Source of the DNA: Haloplanus sp. HW8-1
GTDB taxonomy: Archaea > Halobacteriota > Halobacteria > Halobacteriales > Haloferacaceae
NCBI RefSeq assembly: GCF_023703795.1
Contig: NZ_CP098518.1
Coordinates: forward strand, 3,038,001 to 3,102,000
Direction: 5' to 3'
DNA: 64,000 nt
Position numbers and translations under genes: made by a program. Of the stretch, positions 49,168-55,015 are shown piece by piece (position 1 is the first letter of the stretch; each line of letters begins with the position of its first letter). Under the pieces are notes generated by a model. It saw only the letters and a list, made by a program, of their open reading frames with translations, made no database searches and was not told the origin of the DNA.

Positions 49168-49713
49168 TCCGGACGAAGGATCGACCGACGACGCCGAAGC
49201 GGTCGGACGTCGTCGAACTTCCCCCCGGAACTCGATGCCCGGCCCCGTGAGCGTGTACGGGCCTTCGCTCCGGAACGTCGCGGCCGAAGACGGCGCCGTG
49301 GGGGAACGGCGCCGAGCACCGAGGTGCCAGTGGGGTGTGCCGGGCGCGCGGGTGGGGAGGATGGGAACTGAAGCCGGTAGTGCGCGCCCAGTCGGACGGT
49401 TGCCGTCCCTCGACTTAAATATACGTCAGACGATGGTGAGGTTGCCGACACGTCGACGGGGGGCAGTTGACCGGCCGGAAGCCGTGACGACACCGTCCAC
49501 AGTCGGTGATCGACGCGACCGGAGCGGGTCGAAATTCGTAGCCCCCCTCCGTCGTCGTCGGGCGACGGACCCGTGATCCGGAGCGACCGACCCACGGCCA
49601 GTCGAGGGGTTCGAAGGGTCGTTCCAACGGTACCGAGGGATCGGGAGTGGCGCATACTGGAAAATATAAAAATTATAAACAGTATTCAGACACTGCCGGA
49701 CAGCAGTATCTGG
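49168..49713. other. Long upstream region of the ECF operon
   Basis: About 545 bases. Two TATA-like elements are seen: CTTAAATATACG at 49413-49424 and a very AT-rich AAAATATAAAAATTATAAAC at about 49661-49680. The first would give a leader of some 260 nt, long enough for an RNA switch. I could not match it to cobalamin, TPP, preQ1 or other known riboswitch cores. Confidence 0.5.
49661..49681 (+). promoter_or_regulatory. Promoter of the ECF operon
   Basis: The most AT-rich stretch in the window, with overlapping TATA boxes (AATATAAAAA, TTATAAAC). Its centre lies about 40 nt before the ATG at 49714, giving a short leader for the first ECF gene. Confidence 0.65.
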
Positions 49714-50568
49714 ATGTCGCTGACAAACCAGCAGGAAGAAGGGTTGTTCAGTTTCGACAATCAGGACATGATGGTGTTCATACTCGTCATGTCACTTCAC
49801 GGATTGCAGATGATGTTCGCGGAGCTGCTTCCGTCGTTCTCGCTCGGGGGGTTGGAACTCGAACTGGGGCCGTTTCTCTTCATTTCCTACACGCTCGTCT
49901 TCCTCTTTCGGTCCTTCTGGGCGTGTCTGGCCGTTCCCGTCGGTGGCATCGTCTTCGGCGAAATCCTGATAGGTGATTTCAGTGCGTTCGGGGCCGTCGA
50001 GAGCCTCCTCATGATCACGATTTCGCTGTACATCGCGACGACGATGATCAGCGATCCGGAGGACGTGAAGTGGCTCGCGGTGCTGGCGGTGGTCGCCAAG
50101 GGGCTGGAGGAACTCGCGGCACAGTTCATCGACGTCGGGAAGTTCTACGTCGGCGTCGAATCACTGGAGGCCATCGAGTGGCTTCCGGAGACGATTTGGG
50201 CCGTCGAAGTCGCGGGTGCGACCACCCAAGTCATCATCGCGGGGATTATCTTCGGTGCGCTTCCGATGATGTACTTCTATCCGCGGATGCGCGGGAAGAT
50301 CGAACCGCTGCTCGGGATGGAACCGGTCGAGGGACATCCGAGCGGCAAGCGGATCAACCGGGACACGTACAAGGGACTTATCGCGTGGGTCGTTCTGACG
50401 CCCATCGCGTTCGTCTTCGAGGCCTTCAGCGAGACCAGCGGTGCGTTCCTCGTCTTCGAACCGCAGTTCGTCGAGTCCTACGGACAGGTCTTCTTCGCGG
50501 TCCCAATCGTCGCCGCCGCAGTCGTCGCCTACGGCGTGGTGTACTACCGCCAGCGGGACACCGCGTAA
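49714..50568 (+). CDS. Probable ECF transporter substrate-binding (S-like) membrane protein
   Basis: 284 aa with six to eight membrane helices (about residues 19-37, 48-66, 68-86, 92-111, 118-133, 166-188, 222-240, 256-276). It precedes an EcfA-type double ATPase and EcfT on the same strand, so it takes the place of the S component that binds the substrate. It is longer than typical 170-220-aa S components. It matches no vitamin- or metal-specific family I know, so the substrate is unknown. The start at MSLTNQQEE is set by the first membrane segment and the promoter position; the frame is open upstream without protein character. Confidence 0.7.
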   Translation: MSLTNQQEEGLFSFDNQDMMVFILVMSLHGLQMMFAELLPSFSLGGLELELGPFLFISYTLVFLFRSFWACLAVPVGGIVFGEILIGDFSAFGAVESLLMITISLYIATTMISDPEDVKWLAVLAVVAKGLEELAAQFIDVGKFYVGVESLEAIEWLPETIWAVEVAGATTQVIIAGIIFGALPMMYFYPRMRGKIEPLLGMEPVEGHPSGKRINRDTYKGLIAWVVLTPIAFVFEAFSETSGAFLVFEPQFVESYGQVFFAVPIVAAAVVAYGVVYYRQRDTA

Positions 50569-50595
50569 TCGCAACGGCTCGATTTTTATACTCCA

Positions 50596-52305
50596 ATGGC
50601 TTCAACGACAATCACTGTCGAAGACCTGACATTCAGATACCCGGGGAGCGACGACCCAGTGTTACGGAACGCGAACGTCGAGATCGACTCCAGTGAGTTC
50701 ACCGCGATCATCGGCGGTAACGGGAGCGGCAAAACGACGCTCTGCAAGGCGTTCAACGGACTGGTCCCGCACTTCTTCGACGGAACGTTCGAGGGGACGG
50801 TGACGGTTGGTGACACCGTCACGACCGAGAGCGACGTCTCGGCGCTCTCCCGGACGGTCGGGTACGTGTTTCAGGACTTCGAGAACCAACTCGTCCAACC
50901 CATCGTCCTCGACGACGTGGCGTTCGCTCCGAAAAATCACGGTCTGGAAGACTACCGAGCCCGTGCGATGGACGCACTCGAAGCGGTGGGGCTCGGCGAT
51001 GTGGCTGACCGCTTCATCTGGGAACTCAGCGGCGGCCAGCAACATCTGGTCGCCCTCGCCGGGGTATTGGCGATGGCACCGGACGTCATCGTCGTCGACG
51101 AGCCAGCGGCCCAACTCGACCCCGACAACGCCCGCCGAACCTACGAACAGCTCCGGGAGATCCAACGAAGCACCGACGTCGGCGTGATCGTGATCGAGCA
51201 CCATACGGAGTTCATCGCCGACTACTGTGATCGGCTCGTCATGGTCGCCGACGGCGACGTGGCGTGGACCGAACCGGTCGACGCCGGTCTGAATCGGGTC
51301 GAGGAACTGCTCGACGCGAACATCCATCCGCCACAGGTCACCCAGATCGCTCGGCGACTCCCGGAGGGGGACGGAGCCTTGGCGAACGGCCGGTATCCGG
51401 TGACGGTCGAACAGGCCGTCGATGCCTTTCCGGCGGCCGTCCCCGAAGGGAGGCGTACGGTTACGCCGGACGGCAGTGGGGGTGCTGAGACCCTCGTTAG
51501 CGTCCGCGACGTGACCCACGGATATCCGACGCTCCGCGAGGGCCGAAAGACGGTTCTCGACGGGGTCGATATGGATCTGTACGCCGGGAACAGGGTCGCA
51601 CTCGTCGGTGCCAACGGAACCGGGAAGTCGACACTACTCCGGTTGCTAACCGGCCTCGAATCGCCGGACGAGGGTTCCGTCGTCGTTCTCGGCAACGATA
51701 CGAACGATACGCTCCCCGAGGAACTGGCCGAGGAGACGGTGTACATCCACCAAAATCCCGAGGAGATGTTCGTCGAGGAGACGGTCCGGGAGGACGTCGC
51801 GTACTACTTGAAAAATCGGGACGCGCCGAACGTCGACGAGCGGGTCGACGACGTCGTCGACTTTCTGGACCTCGAAGGGATCGCTGACCGGGACGGTCGC
51901 CTCCTGAGCATCGGCCAACAGCGACGGGCGTCGCTGGCTATCGGTCTGGCGACCGAGCCGACCATCGTGTTGCTGGACGAACCGACCGGGAGCCTCGACC
52001 TCCAGAGCCGCCGCGAGGTGACGCGAATGCTCTCGCGGTCGGAGTCCCGGACGGAGACGGTCGTCGTCGCTACCCACGACCTCAAGCTAGTGGCCGAGTG
52101 GGCGGATCGGGCCGTAGTTCTCGGTCCCGACGGGATCCTCGCCGACGAAACTCCACGGTCGCTGTTCGAACGGCCCGAACTCTTGGAGCGGGCCCACCTC
52201 CGGGCACCGCAAGTCGTCGAACTCAGTGAACGACTCGGAATCGACCCGCCCTCGCTGACGACGTCGGATATCATCGAGCGGCTGTCGAAACAGGAGGCCC
52301 GGTGA
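50596..52305 (+). CDS. ecfA: ECF transporter ATPase, two ABC domains fused
   Basis: 569 aa. First ABC domain (~1-240): Walker A G-G-N-G-S-G-K-T-T, Q-loop F-Q-D-F-E-N-Q-L, signature L-S-G-G-Q-Q, Walker B V-I-V-V-D-E-P-A. Second (~295-520): Walker A G-A-N-G-T-G-K-S-T, signature weakened to L-S-I-G-Q-Q-R-R, Walker B T-I-V-L-L-D-E-P-T-G. This is the EcfA1-EcfA2 pair in one chain, powering uptake with EcfT. A TATA-like TTTTTATA ends only six bases before the ATG, too close to serve this start. Its TGA overlaps the ecfT ATG by one base. Confidence 0.92.
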   Translation: MASTTITVEDLTFRYPGSDDPVLRNANVEIDSSEFTAIIGGNGSGKTTLCKAFNGLVPHFFDGTFEGTVTVGDTVTTESDVSALSRTVGYVFQDFENQLVQPIVLDDVAFAPKNHGLEDYRARAMDALEAVGLGDVADRFIWELSGGQQHLVALAGVLAMAPDVIVVDEPAAQLDPDNARRTYEQLREIQRSTDVGVIVIEHHTEFIADYCDRLVMVADGDVAWTEPVDAGLNRVEELLDANIHPPQVTQIARRLPEGDGALANGRYPVTVEQAVDAFPAAVPEGRRTVTPDGSGGAETLVSVRDVTHGYPTLREGRKTVLDGVDMDLYAGNRVALVGANGTGKSTLLRLLTGLESPDEGSVVVLGNDTNDTLPEELAEETVYIHQNPEEMFVEETVREDVAYYLKNRDAPNVDERVDDVVDFLDLEGIADRDGRLLSIGQQRRASLAIGLATEPTIVLLDEPTGSLDLQSRREVTRMLSRSESRTETVVVATHDLKLVAEWADRAVVLGPDGILADETPRSLFERPELLERAHLRAPQVVELSERLGIDPPSLTTSDIIERLSKQEAR

Positions 52306-53144
52306 TGGGGTATCTCGACGCGCTCCGGAACGTCACAATCGCCGACATCAAGGTCGACCTCATGCGGACAGCCTATGACAACGACGACGCACTGCTGAAC
52401 AAGTTCGATCCGCGCGTCGTGATCATCTGGTCGGCGATATTCGTCATCGTTCCCTGGTTCTTCTACGAGCCCGAACCCCTGTTCGTGATGCTCGTCGCGT
52501 CGCTGCTCCTGGCGTACCTGTCACAGACCAGTATCTACCTCCTCGCCCTCCTGATCTGGGGGAGCCTCTCGAACATCGGCTTCATCGTCATCGTCAGTTC
52601 GGTCGTCTACTGGTGGCAAGGTGGATCGGGAGGGCTCCAGGGCGCGGTCGTCGACAACAGCGTCGCGCTCCTGCCGTTCACGATGAAACTGACCGTCATC
52701 TCGGTCGTGAGTCTGGCGGCGTTCTCGGCGATGAGTCCGAAGAAACTCGCCAAGGGAATGTTGAGCCTCGGGGTTCCCCGTCCGTTCACCTTCGCAATCG
52801 CGTACGGCTACCGGATGATGCCGGTCCTGCTCGAGGAGTACCACGATCTGGTCAACTCGTTGCGGCTCCGAAACAAGGCCCCCGAGAACCGCGGTCTACT
52901 GCGGTGGCGATACTACCTGTATCTGCTGAAACTCTCTATCAAGGCGTTCTACCCGATGGCGTTCAACGTCGCGAAACGCTCCAGAGTCACCGTCGAGGCG
53001 ATGGAGACCAAGGGGTTCTCCCACTCGCTGGGCGACGAGGCCAGCCGGGAACTCAGGCTGGGCGGCCTCGAAATACAGCCTCGCGACGTGACGTTCCTGT
53101 TGGTGTCGCTGCTGTTCGTGGTCGTCGTCGCGGTATTCCTGTAG
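52305..53144 (+). CDS. ecfT: ECF transporter transmembrane component EcfT
   Basis: 279 aa from the ATG at 52305; a GTG three bases earlier is possible. Membrane helices lie near residues 38-58, 60-82, 90-108, 125-145 and 258-278. The long cytoplasmic coupling helices include SPKKLAKGMLSLGVP and the R-V-T-V-E-A-M-E-T-K-G-F segment that stands for the A-R-G coupling motif contacting the ATPases. It links the S component to EcfA. Last gene of the operon. Confidence 0.9.
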   Translation: MGYLDALRNVTIADIKVDLMRTAYDNDDALLNKFDPRVVIIWSAIFVIVPWFFYEPEPLFVMLVASLLLAYLSQTSIYLLALLIWGSLSNIGFIVIVSSVVYWWQGGSGGLQGAVVDNSVALLPFTMKLTVISVVSLAAFSAMSPKKLAKGMLSLGVPRPFTFAIAYGYRMMPVLLEEYHDLVNSLRLRNKAPENRGLLRWRYYLYLLKLSIKAFYPMAFNVAKRSRVTVEAMETKGFSHSLGDEASRELRLGGLEIQPRDVTFLLVSLLFVVVVAVFL

Positions 53145-53189
53145 GTCGACGACCGTCGGGTGACGCGTTCGACACGCGACCCCCGGCCG

Positions 53190-53960
53190 CTACGCCAACA
53201 GGTCGTCGACCCCGACGAGTTCGATAGCCGCGTCGTCGGTGACGTCGCGAAGCGCCGGGACGCGATCGGTCAGTTCCCCCGGTCGGTGGCTGTCGCTCCC
53301 GAGGACGAACCCGACATCGCGGTCGGCGAACGGGCCGAACATCGACGGATCGGGGTGGGGGCGTCCCAGTGCCCGGTCGATTCGCCCGGCGTTGAGTTCC
53401 GGGACGGTCCGTGAGTCGGCCAGCGCCGCGGCGACGCGTTCGTAGTCCTCAGCGCGCGAGTGACCGCGCAGCGTCTCCAGTCGCTCGGGCAAGTCGAGGT
53501 GGCCGAGCACGTCGAACAGGTCCGATTCGACCAGGCTGACGACGGCGTCGTAGTACCGTTCGACCGCTGCCCGACGGAACCCGTCGCTCTCGCCGACGTA
53601 GGGGGTGTCGCTGGTGTAGTCGTACTCGCCGGCGAAGTGGACGCTGCCGATGGTGTAGTCGAAGCCGGCGGTTTCGAGGAACGCCTCGGTCGTGTCGGTC
53701 TCGCTCCCGACGTAACTCACCTCCGCGGAGTCGTACAGCGTCAGGTCGACGCGCTCTCGGGCCGCCTCGATGACCTCCCGCCGGCGCTCGTACGTCTCGA
53801 CGAGGTCGTATCGCGTCCGGCGACCGAACGCGTCGTCGGCCACGATGCAGTGGTCGGTCAGTCCCAGAGCGTCGAGGCCGGTGTCCTCGGCCGCATCGAT
53901 CATTGTGGACAGTTCGGAGCCGTCGGAGAAGGTCGTATGCGCGTGGACGTCCGTCCGCAT
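53190..53960 (-). CDS. PHP-domain phosphoesterase
   Basis: 256 aa. Metal-binding PHP motifs in order: D-V-H-A-H-T-T-F-S-D-G at residues 4-14, L-T-D-H-C near 34, a Glu in A-E-V-S, H-F in GSVHFAG, G-H-L-D near 155 and S-D-S-H near 225. The family includes histidinol-phosphate phosphatase and DNA-polymerase-associated PHP proteins. The stand-alone form here is most like histidinol phosphatase, but the substrate is open. The ATG overlaps the comB stop (TGATG), so the two are translationally coupled. Confidence 0.85.
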   Translation of the reverse strand: MRTDVHAHTTFSDGSELSTMIDAAEDTGLDALGLTDHCIVADDAFGRRTRYDLVETYERRREVIEAARERVDLTLYDSAEVSYVGSETDTTEAFLETAGFDYTIGSVHFAGEYDYTSDTPYVGESDGFRRAAVERYYDAVVSLVESDLFDVLGHLDLPERLETLRGHSRAEDYERVAAALADSRTVPELNAGRIDRALGRPHPDPSMFGPFADRDVGFVLGSDSHRPGELTDRVPALRDVTDDAAIELVGVDDLLA

Positions 53961-54652
53961 CACGCGCTACCGGCGACGTCGTACAGTTTCTGGCCATCGA
54001 GTTTCGGCACGACGTCCCGGCTGTCGACAGCCAGGGCGTACTCGTAGAGGTCGGTGCGCTTGATCTGGGGCCGCCGTTCGTACTTCGGCCCCTTCGAGAA
54101 CGCGACCATCTCGTGGTAGACCGCCAGTTCGCGGTCGGTCGGCGGATCGCCGAGCAGGTGGCGCGCGATGAACAGCGCGCCGGCGACGTCCTCCGGCGAC
54201 GGCTTCCCGTTGGAGCCGGCGGCGACGAAGTACGTCTCCGCGTCCTGTTCGCGGAGGTGATCGGCCAGCGCGACGCCGTTGGTCAGGCCGCCGACGTAGA
54301 CATCGACCTCGTCGCCGCCGGCCGACCGGAGGTCGGTGACGGCGTTGCCGCCGTTCGTGGAAGTCATCGCCGTCGGGCAGCCCGCGACGTCGACGCCTTG
54401 GACGAAACTCGGCGAGTTGAAGAAGTCGTAGCCCGGCTCTCCCCGGTAGTTCGGACCGGAGCCGCCACCGATCTTCGCCCGGGGGTTGGCTTCCTTGAAC
54501 GCCAGTTCGTCGCCCCGGTCTTCGGTGACGTGGACGTACGTCGCGCCGTTGGCGAACAGTTCGGGCACCGTCGTCGAGAACTGCGCCACGTCGACGACGA
54601 CGTAGTTCCCCGGGGTCGGATCCTCGGGGATCTGTGCCCGTGCGGGAATCAT
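53960..54652 (-). CDS. comB: 2-phosphosulfolactate phosphatase-like protein (ComB family)
   Basis: 230 aa from MIPARAQIP. Core motifs Y-V-V-V-D-V-A-Q-F-S-T-T, G-G-G-S-G-P-N-Y, F-F-N-S-P-S-F and S-T-N-G-G are typical of ComB. In methanogens ComB makes sulfolactate for coenzyme M. Haloarchaea are not known to use coenzyme M, so the substrate here may be another phosphorylated sulfo- or hydroxyacid. The frame is open further upstream, but the chosen ATG matches the family's beginning. Confidence 0.85.
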   Translation of the reverse strand: MIPARAQIPEDPTPGNYVVVDVAQFSTTVPELFANGATYVHVTEDRGDELAFKEANPRAKIGGGSGPNYRGEPGYDFFNSPSFVQGVDVAGCPTAMTSTNGGNAVTDLRSAGGDEVDVYVGGLTNGVALADHLREQDAETYFVAAGSNGKPSPEDVAGALFIARHLLGDPPTDRELAVYHEMVAFSKGPKYERRPQIKRTDLYEYALAVDSRDVVPKLDGQKLYDVAGSA

Positions 54653-54904
54653 CCGGTCGAGAGGGAGAGACGCCGCCGTCCCGTCTGCGAGTAGGCTCAC
54701 GCTCGCAGAACGCCGGACGATCACATGAGTGTAACTAAGAGGACTATATGCCACTACGAAGCCCTCTCGAGTTGCGGGGGAGCGGCGTCCGACACCACGG
54801 ACCGAGGGGCCGTCCCGGTGCGACGCGGGACGCGCCGCCGCCCGTGCAAGGCACACCGACCGGCGAGGTTAAGCCTCTTTATCCCTCGTGACCCAGCGTC
54901 GGCC

Positions 54905-55015
54905 GTGACATCGACTTGGGACGACCTCTTTGCGCGCGCCGACGACTACGACCGGACCGAGGCCGACGTCATCGACGCCCTCCGTCGCCACCGTACGGCC
55001 GCCGACGATGATTGA
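54905..55015 (+). CDS. 36-aa small protein overlapping a PIN-like gene
   Basis: 36 aa from a GTG at 54905, acidic and helical (TSTWDDLFARADDYDRTEAD then VIDALRRHRTAADDD). It lies in the haloarchaeal codon pattern and its last 8 bases overlap the start of the PIN-like gene (ATGATTGA), giving tight coupling. A TATA-like CTCTTTATCC at 54872-54881 precedes it by about 25-30 nt. Its size and position resemble a small antitoxin, but no antitoxin family is recognised. Confidence 0.6.
   Translation: MTSTWDDLFARADDYDRTEADVIDALRRHRTAADDD

Follow-up and report, generated by a model that had tools for sequence, protein, structure and literature searches.

An archaeal ECF importer operon with an orphan S-like component and exchangeable phosphoesterase neighbours

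The importer operon and its orphan first gene

The DNA analysed here is a stretch of 64,000 nucleotides (the window) from contig NZ_CP098518.1 of Haloplanus sp. HW8-1, a haloarchaeal chromosome segment with archaeal rRNA genes at its start. On its forward strand lies a three-gene operon which, judged from the sequence, very probably encodes a dedicated, group I-like energy-coupling factor (ECF) importer. The first gene (49714..50568) is an open reading frame (ORF) of an orphan family and encodes an S-component-like, multi-span protein of 284 amino acids. It is followed by the genes for a fused EcfA-EcfA' double ATP-binding cassette (ABC) ATPase of 569 amino acids (50596..52305) and for the transmembrane coupling protein EcfT of 279 amino acids (52305..53144). 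With 372 bits (cut-off 315) the ATPase is a match to TIGR04520, the equivalog model for ECF ATPases, and it carries Walker A, signature and Walker B motifs in both halves, two of each; EcfT matches the CbiQ family PF02361 with 58.5 bits (E 1e-15, cut-off 25). The stop codon of the ATPase gene and the start codon of the EcfT gene share the A of TGA/ATG at 52305. An earlier note on this DNA had described the same three products and the 1-bp overlap of the last two genes, and coordinates as well as family matches hold.

Group I ECF systems possess a dedicated S component, and the operon accordingly combines EcfA-type ATPases and an EcfT/CbiQ component with a candidate S gene of its own. Homologues of the first gene were found in 41 of 391 Halobacteria genomes, distributed over 18 of 86 genera (the own genome included; the others share 40-97% identity), and the order S, A, T is kept at all 41 loci. 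This conservation indicates that the association of the three genes is more than chance. Within a sample of the phylum, nine of 392 genomes contained a match, all from one and the same order, and no intermediate between haloarchaeal and bacterial members was detected in that sample. Bacterial members occur in plasmid records of Niallia taxi (37.5% identity to the window protein within the matched region) and Streptomyces cavourensis (36.4%), where in both cases a fused double ATPase gene and an EcfT-like gene come next, so that the gene order is identical at both bacterial loci. The family thus spans archaea and bacteria; no relatives were present in the viral contigs and phages searched.

The earlier note had stated that the first gene fits no vitamin, cobalt, nickel, biotin or queuosine S family known to it, and profile searches bear this out. 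Searched alone, the 284-amino-acid protein hit nothing in Pfam at E up to 5, in NCBIfam at E up to 1 or in the PDB at E up to 10. From its homologues a family alignment of 27 aligned rows was established. None of the 27 members matched PF12822, PF09819, PF02632 or other S families in Pfam and NCBIfam at E up to 10; the best hits were at chance level (E 0.06 in Pfam, 0.13 in NCBIfam), and the 27-row profile found no hit in the PDB, solved S components included, at E up to 10. Compared profile against profile with haloarchaeal BioY and CbiM, the family showed no similarity, a result of no power, as the positive control BioY-CbiM failed likewise. BioY and CbiM-type proteins are ECF S components within the same class, and this genome also has BioY.

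Averaged hydropathy of the alignment shows eight peaks, read by eye as helices at about residues 20-38, 50-67, 69-84, 92-111, 118-138, 166-189, 221-240 and 260-278. Basic residues (K/R) lie at 66, 119, 191-195 and 212-220, with K129 and K143 located elsewhere. Because of these peaks and basic positions, the protein fits a predicted core of six transmembrane (TM) helices with the N-terminus inside (about residues 1-200), followed by a cytoplasmic linker and a C-terminal tail of two TM helices. Of the 42 invariant alignment columns, 40 fall within residues 15-204 and two in the tail. The unusual length, already remarked upon in the earlier note, is therefore explained by a poorly conserved two-TM extension on a core of ordinary S-component size. 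Additional terminal helices are known from the group I S components NikM and YkoE (PMC5037267).

Among the closest known systems is YkoEDC, a group I system for thiamine/HMP from Bacillus. Both systems are three-gene operons with an S component, a fused double ATPase and a T component, and in both the S or S-like component is extended at the C-terminus, by prediction in the window family and by an additional helix in YkoE (PMC5037267). Unlike YkoEDC, the window family has phosphoesterase partners and gave no YkoE (PF09819) match in any of its 27 members. Moreover, PF09819 was absent from 97 Halobacteria genomes, this one included, and no THI box was found near the operon (no Rfam match above gathering). 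The TCDB systems QrtT, MtsU, MtaT, CbrT and HtsTUV are likewise all ECF importers, the substrate of HtsTUV being listed as 'unknown' (PMC3654945). HtsTUV may be identical with the family described here. Taken together, the first gene is likely to be an S component of a new family, and the proposal of a transporter for an unassigned nutrient in the earlier note stands, with a dedicated ECF system and an S-like gene that lacks a family match.

Linked phosphoesterase genes and their exchange among carriers

The unit extends beyond the trio to positions 53190-54697 of the minus strand, where two further genes were found. The first (53190..53963) lies 45 bp past EcfT in convergent orientation and encodes a HisJ-like PHP-domain phosphoesterase of 257 amino acids, with a PDB match to the histidinol phosphatase of T. 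thermophilus (2yxo, E 3e-15); it stays below the HisJ cut-offs (73.7 against 90.2 bits for TIGR01856, 96.3 against 202 bits for NF005596). The second (53960..54697) overlaps it by 4 bp and encodes a divergent PF04029 protein resembling 2-phosphosulfolactate phosphatase, hereafter called ComB-like; its start codon is uncertain, the ORF opening at 54856. It belongs to PF04029 (81.2 bits, cut-off 26.4), but seven ComB-type NCBIfam models score it at 32-46 bits against cut-offs of 175-345. The nearest solved structure is 1vr0 (E 5e-7), annotated as 2-phosphosulfolactate phosphatase. Where 1vr0 and 2z0j have the arginine of the motif D-x-x-R-A-T, the ComB-like rows have Q, H, S, Y or F; the arginine is absent also in the stronger PF04029 proteins of four loci (L099, L102-L104). 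Both window enzymes are probably cytoplasmic, as no export signal was seen by eye. The earlier interpretation captured the dedicated ECF system and its unassigned substrate and missed these phosphoesterase genes, the bacterial homologues and the C-terminal tail.

The neighbours of the importer genes were tabulated in all 41 S-positive haloarchaeal genomes. A ComB-like gene lies within about 7 kb of the S locus in 36 of them. It is paired with a PHP gene at 22 loci and with an AP2 TIM barrel, a protein unrelated to PHP, at 14. Two genomes of the latter type are scattered: G087 has its ComB-like gene at a distance of 6.1 kb, and in G004, which is not counted among the 36, the S locus and the ComB-like gene lie close to the ends of two different contigs. 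Four loci instead carry an inositol monophosphatase (IMPase) and a CehA/McbA-type protein, one of them (G319) with a ComB-like gene in another place. At none of the 41 loci did PHP occur together with AP2 within about 9 kb. The best NCBIfam match of the AP2 partner is CbiR (78 bits, cut-off 105) and its nearest PDB relative the uncharacterised MJ1311. ComB (PF04029), HisJ-type PHP and CbiR-type AP2 proteins are relatives of these three partner enzymes at family level, all three remaining below equivalog or subfamily cut-offs. The two IMPase genomes L053 and L056, of one genus, share a larger neighbourhood of mixed genes (DHH, NUDIX, HSP20, glycosyltransferase, TFB, MCP), which was not accepted as functional evidence.

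At the bacterial loci the enzymes differ again. In Niallia a PHP-looking gene of the CehA/McbA type (NCBIfam, below cut-off) directly follows EcfT, and a divergent gene without NCBIfam match was read by us as an RpiR/SIS regulator; the Streptomyces locus carries a tandem HAD phosphatase and a LacI regulator. On a joined S-A-T tree (quick method, long branches flagged) the partner type changes at least six times among the PHP, AP2 and IMPase rows, which shows repeated swapping of unrelated enzymes. To our knowledge, no such phosphoesterases are linked to the QrtT, MtsU, MtaT and CbrT systems.

ComB-like genes were present in 38 of the 41 S-positive and in 23 of the 350 S-negative genomes; since the genomes are related, the Fisher value is descriptive only. 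The 15 stronger PF04029 hits, separated from the ComB-like set at E about 1e-30 by our own choice, occurred in none of the S-positive genomes. Inspection of the surroundings in all 23 genomes with a ComB-like gene and without S (L072-L094) revealed AP2 directly after it at four loci (L074, L075, L090, L093), PHP directly after it at two (L092, L094) and PHP a few genes away at two more (L080, L089); the same search found no PHP or AP2 partner at the remaining ones. Because the pair occurs in such loci, it constitutes a module in its own right, often joined by the importer. In L077 (5557-9284) ComB-like stands last in a run of genes for an ABC ATPase, PhoU and a second regulator-like protein, in this order. 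A similar order is seen in L079 by sequence start and in L078, L081 and L095 (the last from the S-positive G319) by size pattern, PhoU itself being shown for L077 only. This suggests that in one genus ComB-like belongs to the phosphate regulon.

Insertion site, promoter and further observations

The block of S, A, T, PHP and ComB-like genes occupies 49432..54898 and is absent from other genomes of the genus. Four of these without S (G233, G240, G335, G281) show the sequence left of 49431-49438 and then, after a short gap, the sequence right of 54899-54913, the right edge of the block varying between 54898 and 54912 by genome. The empty site lies between a conserved non-coding stretch and a DUF7384 gene, and the distance from the HSP20 gene to the DUF7384 gene is 345 bp in G233 versus 5.76 kb in the window. 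In G281 the HSP20 gene is located elsewhere and the same non-coding stretch is present; in G080 and G173 (without S) and in G135 (cassette at another place) this stretch is found 128-275 bp before the DUF7384 gene. In G290, the nearest carrier, the DUF7384 gene stands beside the ComB-like gene and the HSP20 gene elsewhere. From these empty sites it follows that the five genes came or went together, in a single block of about 5.5 kb.

The earlier note had considered acquisition because of lower GC content; acquisition is now supported by the empty sites within the genus, and low GC was rejected as evidence for it. The drop itself is real but weak (0.620 in the operon versus a window mean of 0.680, with 51 of 606 sliding windows of the same size as low or lower). 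GC at third codon positions is 0.82, 0.80 and 0.86 for S, A and T versus 0.79-0.88 in six nearby genes, so that much of the drop is attributable to membrane-protein composition.

The region before S (49660..49700, plus strand) contains a TATA-like element. In a clade of relatives it takes the form TTATAA-N4-TTCAAAT, some 44 bp upstream of the start codon of S, and a similar element lies upstream of S in ten loci (L041-L046, L052, L057, L060, L097). The motif occurs 20 times in 1.53 Mb of loci, where mononucleotide shuffling predicts 0.2 occurrences. Ten of these are assigned to the S gene, and the other ten lie in S loci without gene table at positions that fit an S promoter. Its conservation may reflect descent rather than an operator.

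The non-coding stretch at the left edge (49223-49431, minus strand) is preceded by a TATA-like element, and about 110 of its bases hardly vary among five genomes of the genus. Of 194 Halobacteria genomes 37 contain a match, and these represent 17 of 65 genera; the stretch belongs to no Rfam family. A 10-bp stem is predicted, but the z-score of the whole fold is only -1.0. The stretch looks like a small RNA of haloarchaea that has yet to be described, and its promoter edge is where the ECF block starts.

Two observations concern the ComB-like loci without importer. A protein of about 245-284 amino acids, which by our own reading looks like an ATP-grasp enzyme and gave no Pfam match (two tested), recurs beside the ComB-like genes (L074 9508-10326, L075 7212-8024, L090 5901-6734 and 8813-9550, L093 2523-4331, L072 9815-10606). 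In L080 and L089 the ComB-like gene adjoins genes that look like those of sugar-acid metabolism, testing being confined to the HpcH/HpaI aldolase of L089.

A possible importer of small phosphoesters

The linked phosphoesterase genes are the only functional clue to the substrate. Since phosphoester chemistry is the one theme common to the PHP, AP2, ComB-like, IMPase and HAD partners, we infer a phosphoester as substrate class; the direction of transport and the order of steps are inferences as well. The 284-amino-acid S component would capture the substrate and dock on EcfT, and ATP hydrolysis by the fused EcfA-EcfA' would tip the loaded S component inward. A small phosphoester, such as a sugar or polyol phosphate or a phosphodiester, e.g., a glycerophosphodiester, would thereby be imported whole. 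In the cytoplasm it would be opened and dephosphorylated by a PHP or AP2-type enzyme and a ComB-like or IMPase-type phosphatase, with release of phosphate. The bacterial LacI gene and our own reading of the RpiR gene suggest that the organic part may be sugar- or polyol-like. We assign this combination of a group I importer, a new S family and a small phosphoester dephosphorylated inside a probability of roughly 0.45.

Several observations weigh against it. AP2 TIM barrels and PHP proteins may have other activities, and ComB-like genes with PHP or AP2 occur also without a transporter. One haloarchaeal locus (G220) has a ComB-like gene alone, without PHP or AP2 partner, the Niallia locus has just one phosphoesterase, and neither a kinase nor a downstream pathway was found at the loci. 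Sequence comparison ties the S-like protein to none of the solved or curated S components; the structure prediction proposed in the earlier note was run on four near-identical sequences and yielded an unusable AlphaFold model with a pLDDT of 37.7. The invariant residues presumed to face outward are mostly acidic (E37, D140, E152, E159, E165), and the sole positive conserved one, K143, is replaced in L056, a composition hardly expected of a pocket that binds phosphate. The difficulty would be smaller with a zwitterionic or polyol phosphodiester, but a ligand without phosphate would account for it best.

The same importer could indeed take up a non-phosphorylated micronutrient (vitamin-like, an amine or a polyol), with the phosphoesterases acting on an internal phosphorylated derivative or belonging to an independent, co-travelling pathway. 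The acidic outer residues and the phosphoesterase pairs that are found alone speak for this reading, which we regard as a serious possibility, though short of an even chance. It lacks a linked kinase, however, and mere hitch-hiking would not predict several unrelated phosphoesterase families in varied arrangements at all 41 haloarchaeal and both bacterial loci.

Uptake of a sulfonate or a C3 acid of the phosphosulfolactate type, with ComB-like acting as in coenzyme M synthesis, appears very unlikely: PF04029 membership and the annotation of the nearest structure agree with it, but the low ComB model scores, the replaced arginine (lost in some stronger haloarchaeal PF04029 proteins too) and the four loci in which an IMPase takes the place of ComB-like argue against it. 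Equally improbable is that the first gene encodes an accessory membrane protein that serves an ECF-like system with a different function; such a role would accommodate the missing sequence link to S families and a six-TM fold that is a prediction from hydropathy and charge, but the gene precedes EcfA-EcfT at every haloarchaeal locus and its topology fits an S component. Salvage of a cobamide or a corrinoid fragment is similarly remote, since the AP2 partner, although closest among NCBIfam models to CbiR, which splits the cobamide phosphodiester (PMC7733943), scores below the CbiR cut-off, has an uncharacterised protein as its nearest PDB relative and is found at just 14 loci, with no cobamide gene among the scanned neighbours.

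We found no description of the S family or of the ECF-ComB-PHP cassette in the mostly open literature searched (including PMC3654945, PMC11109136, PMC7733943, PMC9258230 and PMC5037267), in which a survey of ECF vitamin transporters from 2009 figures only as a reference. That the importers for small phosphoesters proposed here constitute the first ECF family for organic phosphoesters in archaea and bacteria, served by five interchangeable phosphoesterase families (PHP, AP2 TIM barrel, ComB-like, IMPase and HAD), is less likely than not. The operon is a known kind of machine; what is new is the putative substrate-capture family and the informative enzyme partnership. S components set which scarce nutrients a microbe scavenges, and a number of them are still unassigned. 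The present family crosses the divide between archaea and bacteria, moves as a compact cassette and brings a specific clue in the form of its swapped phosphoesterases. If the phosphoester clue is true, ECF transport would come to include organophosphates taken up intact, from which archaea in brines might draw phosphorus.

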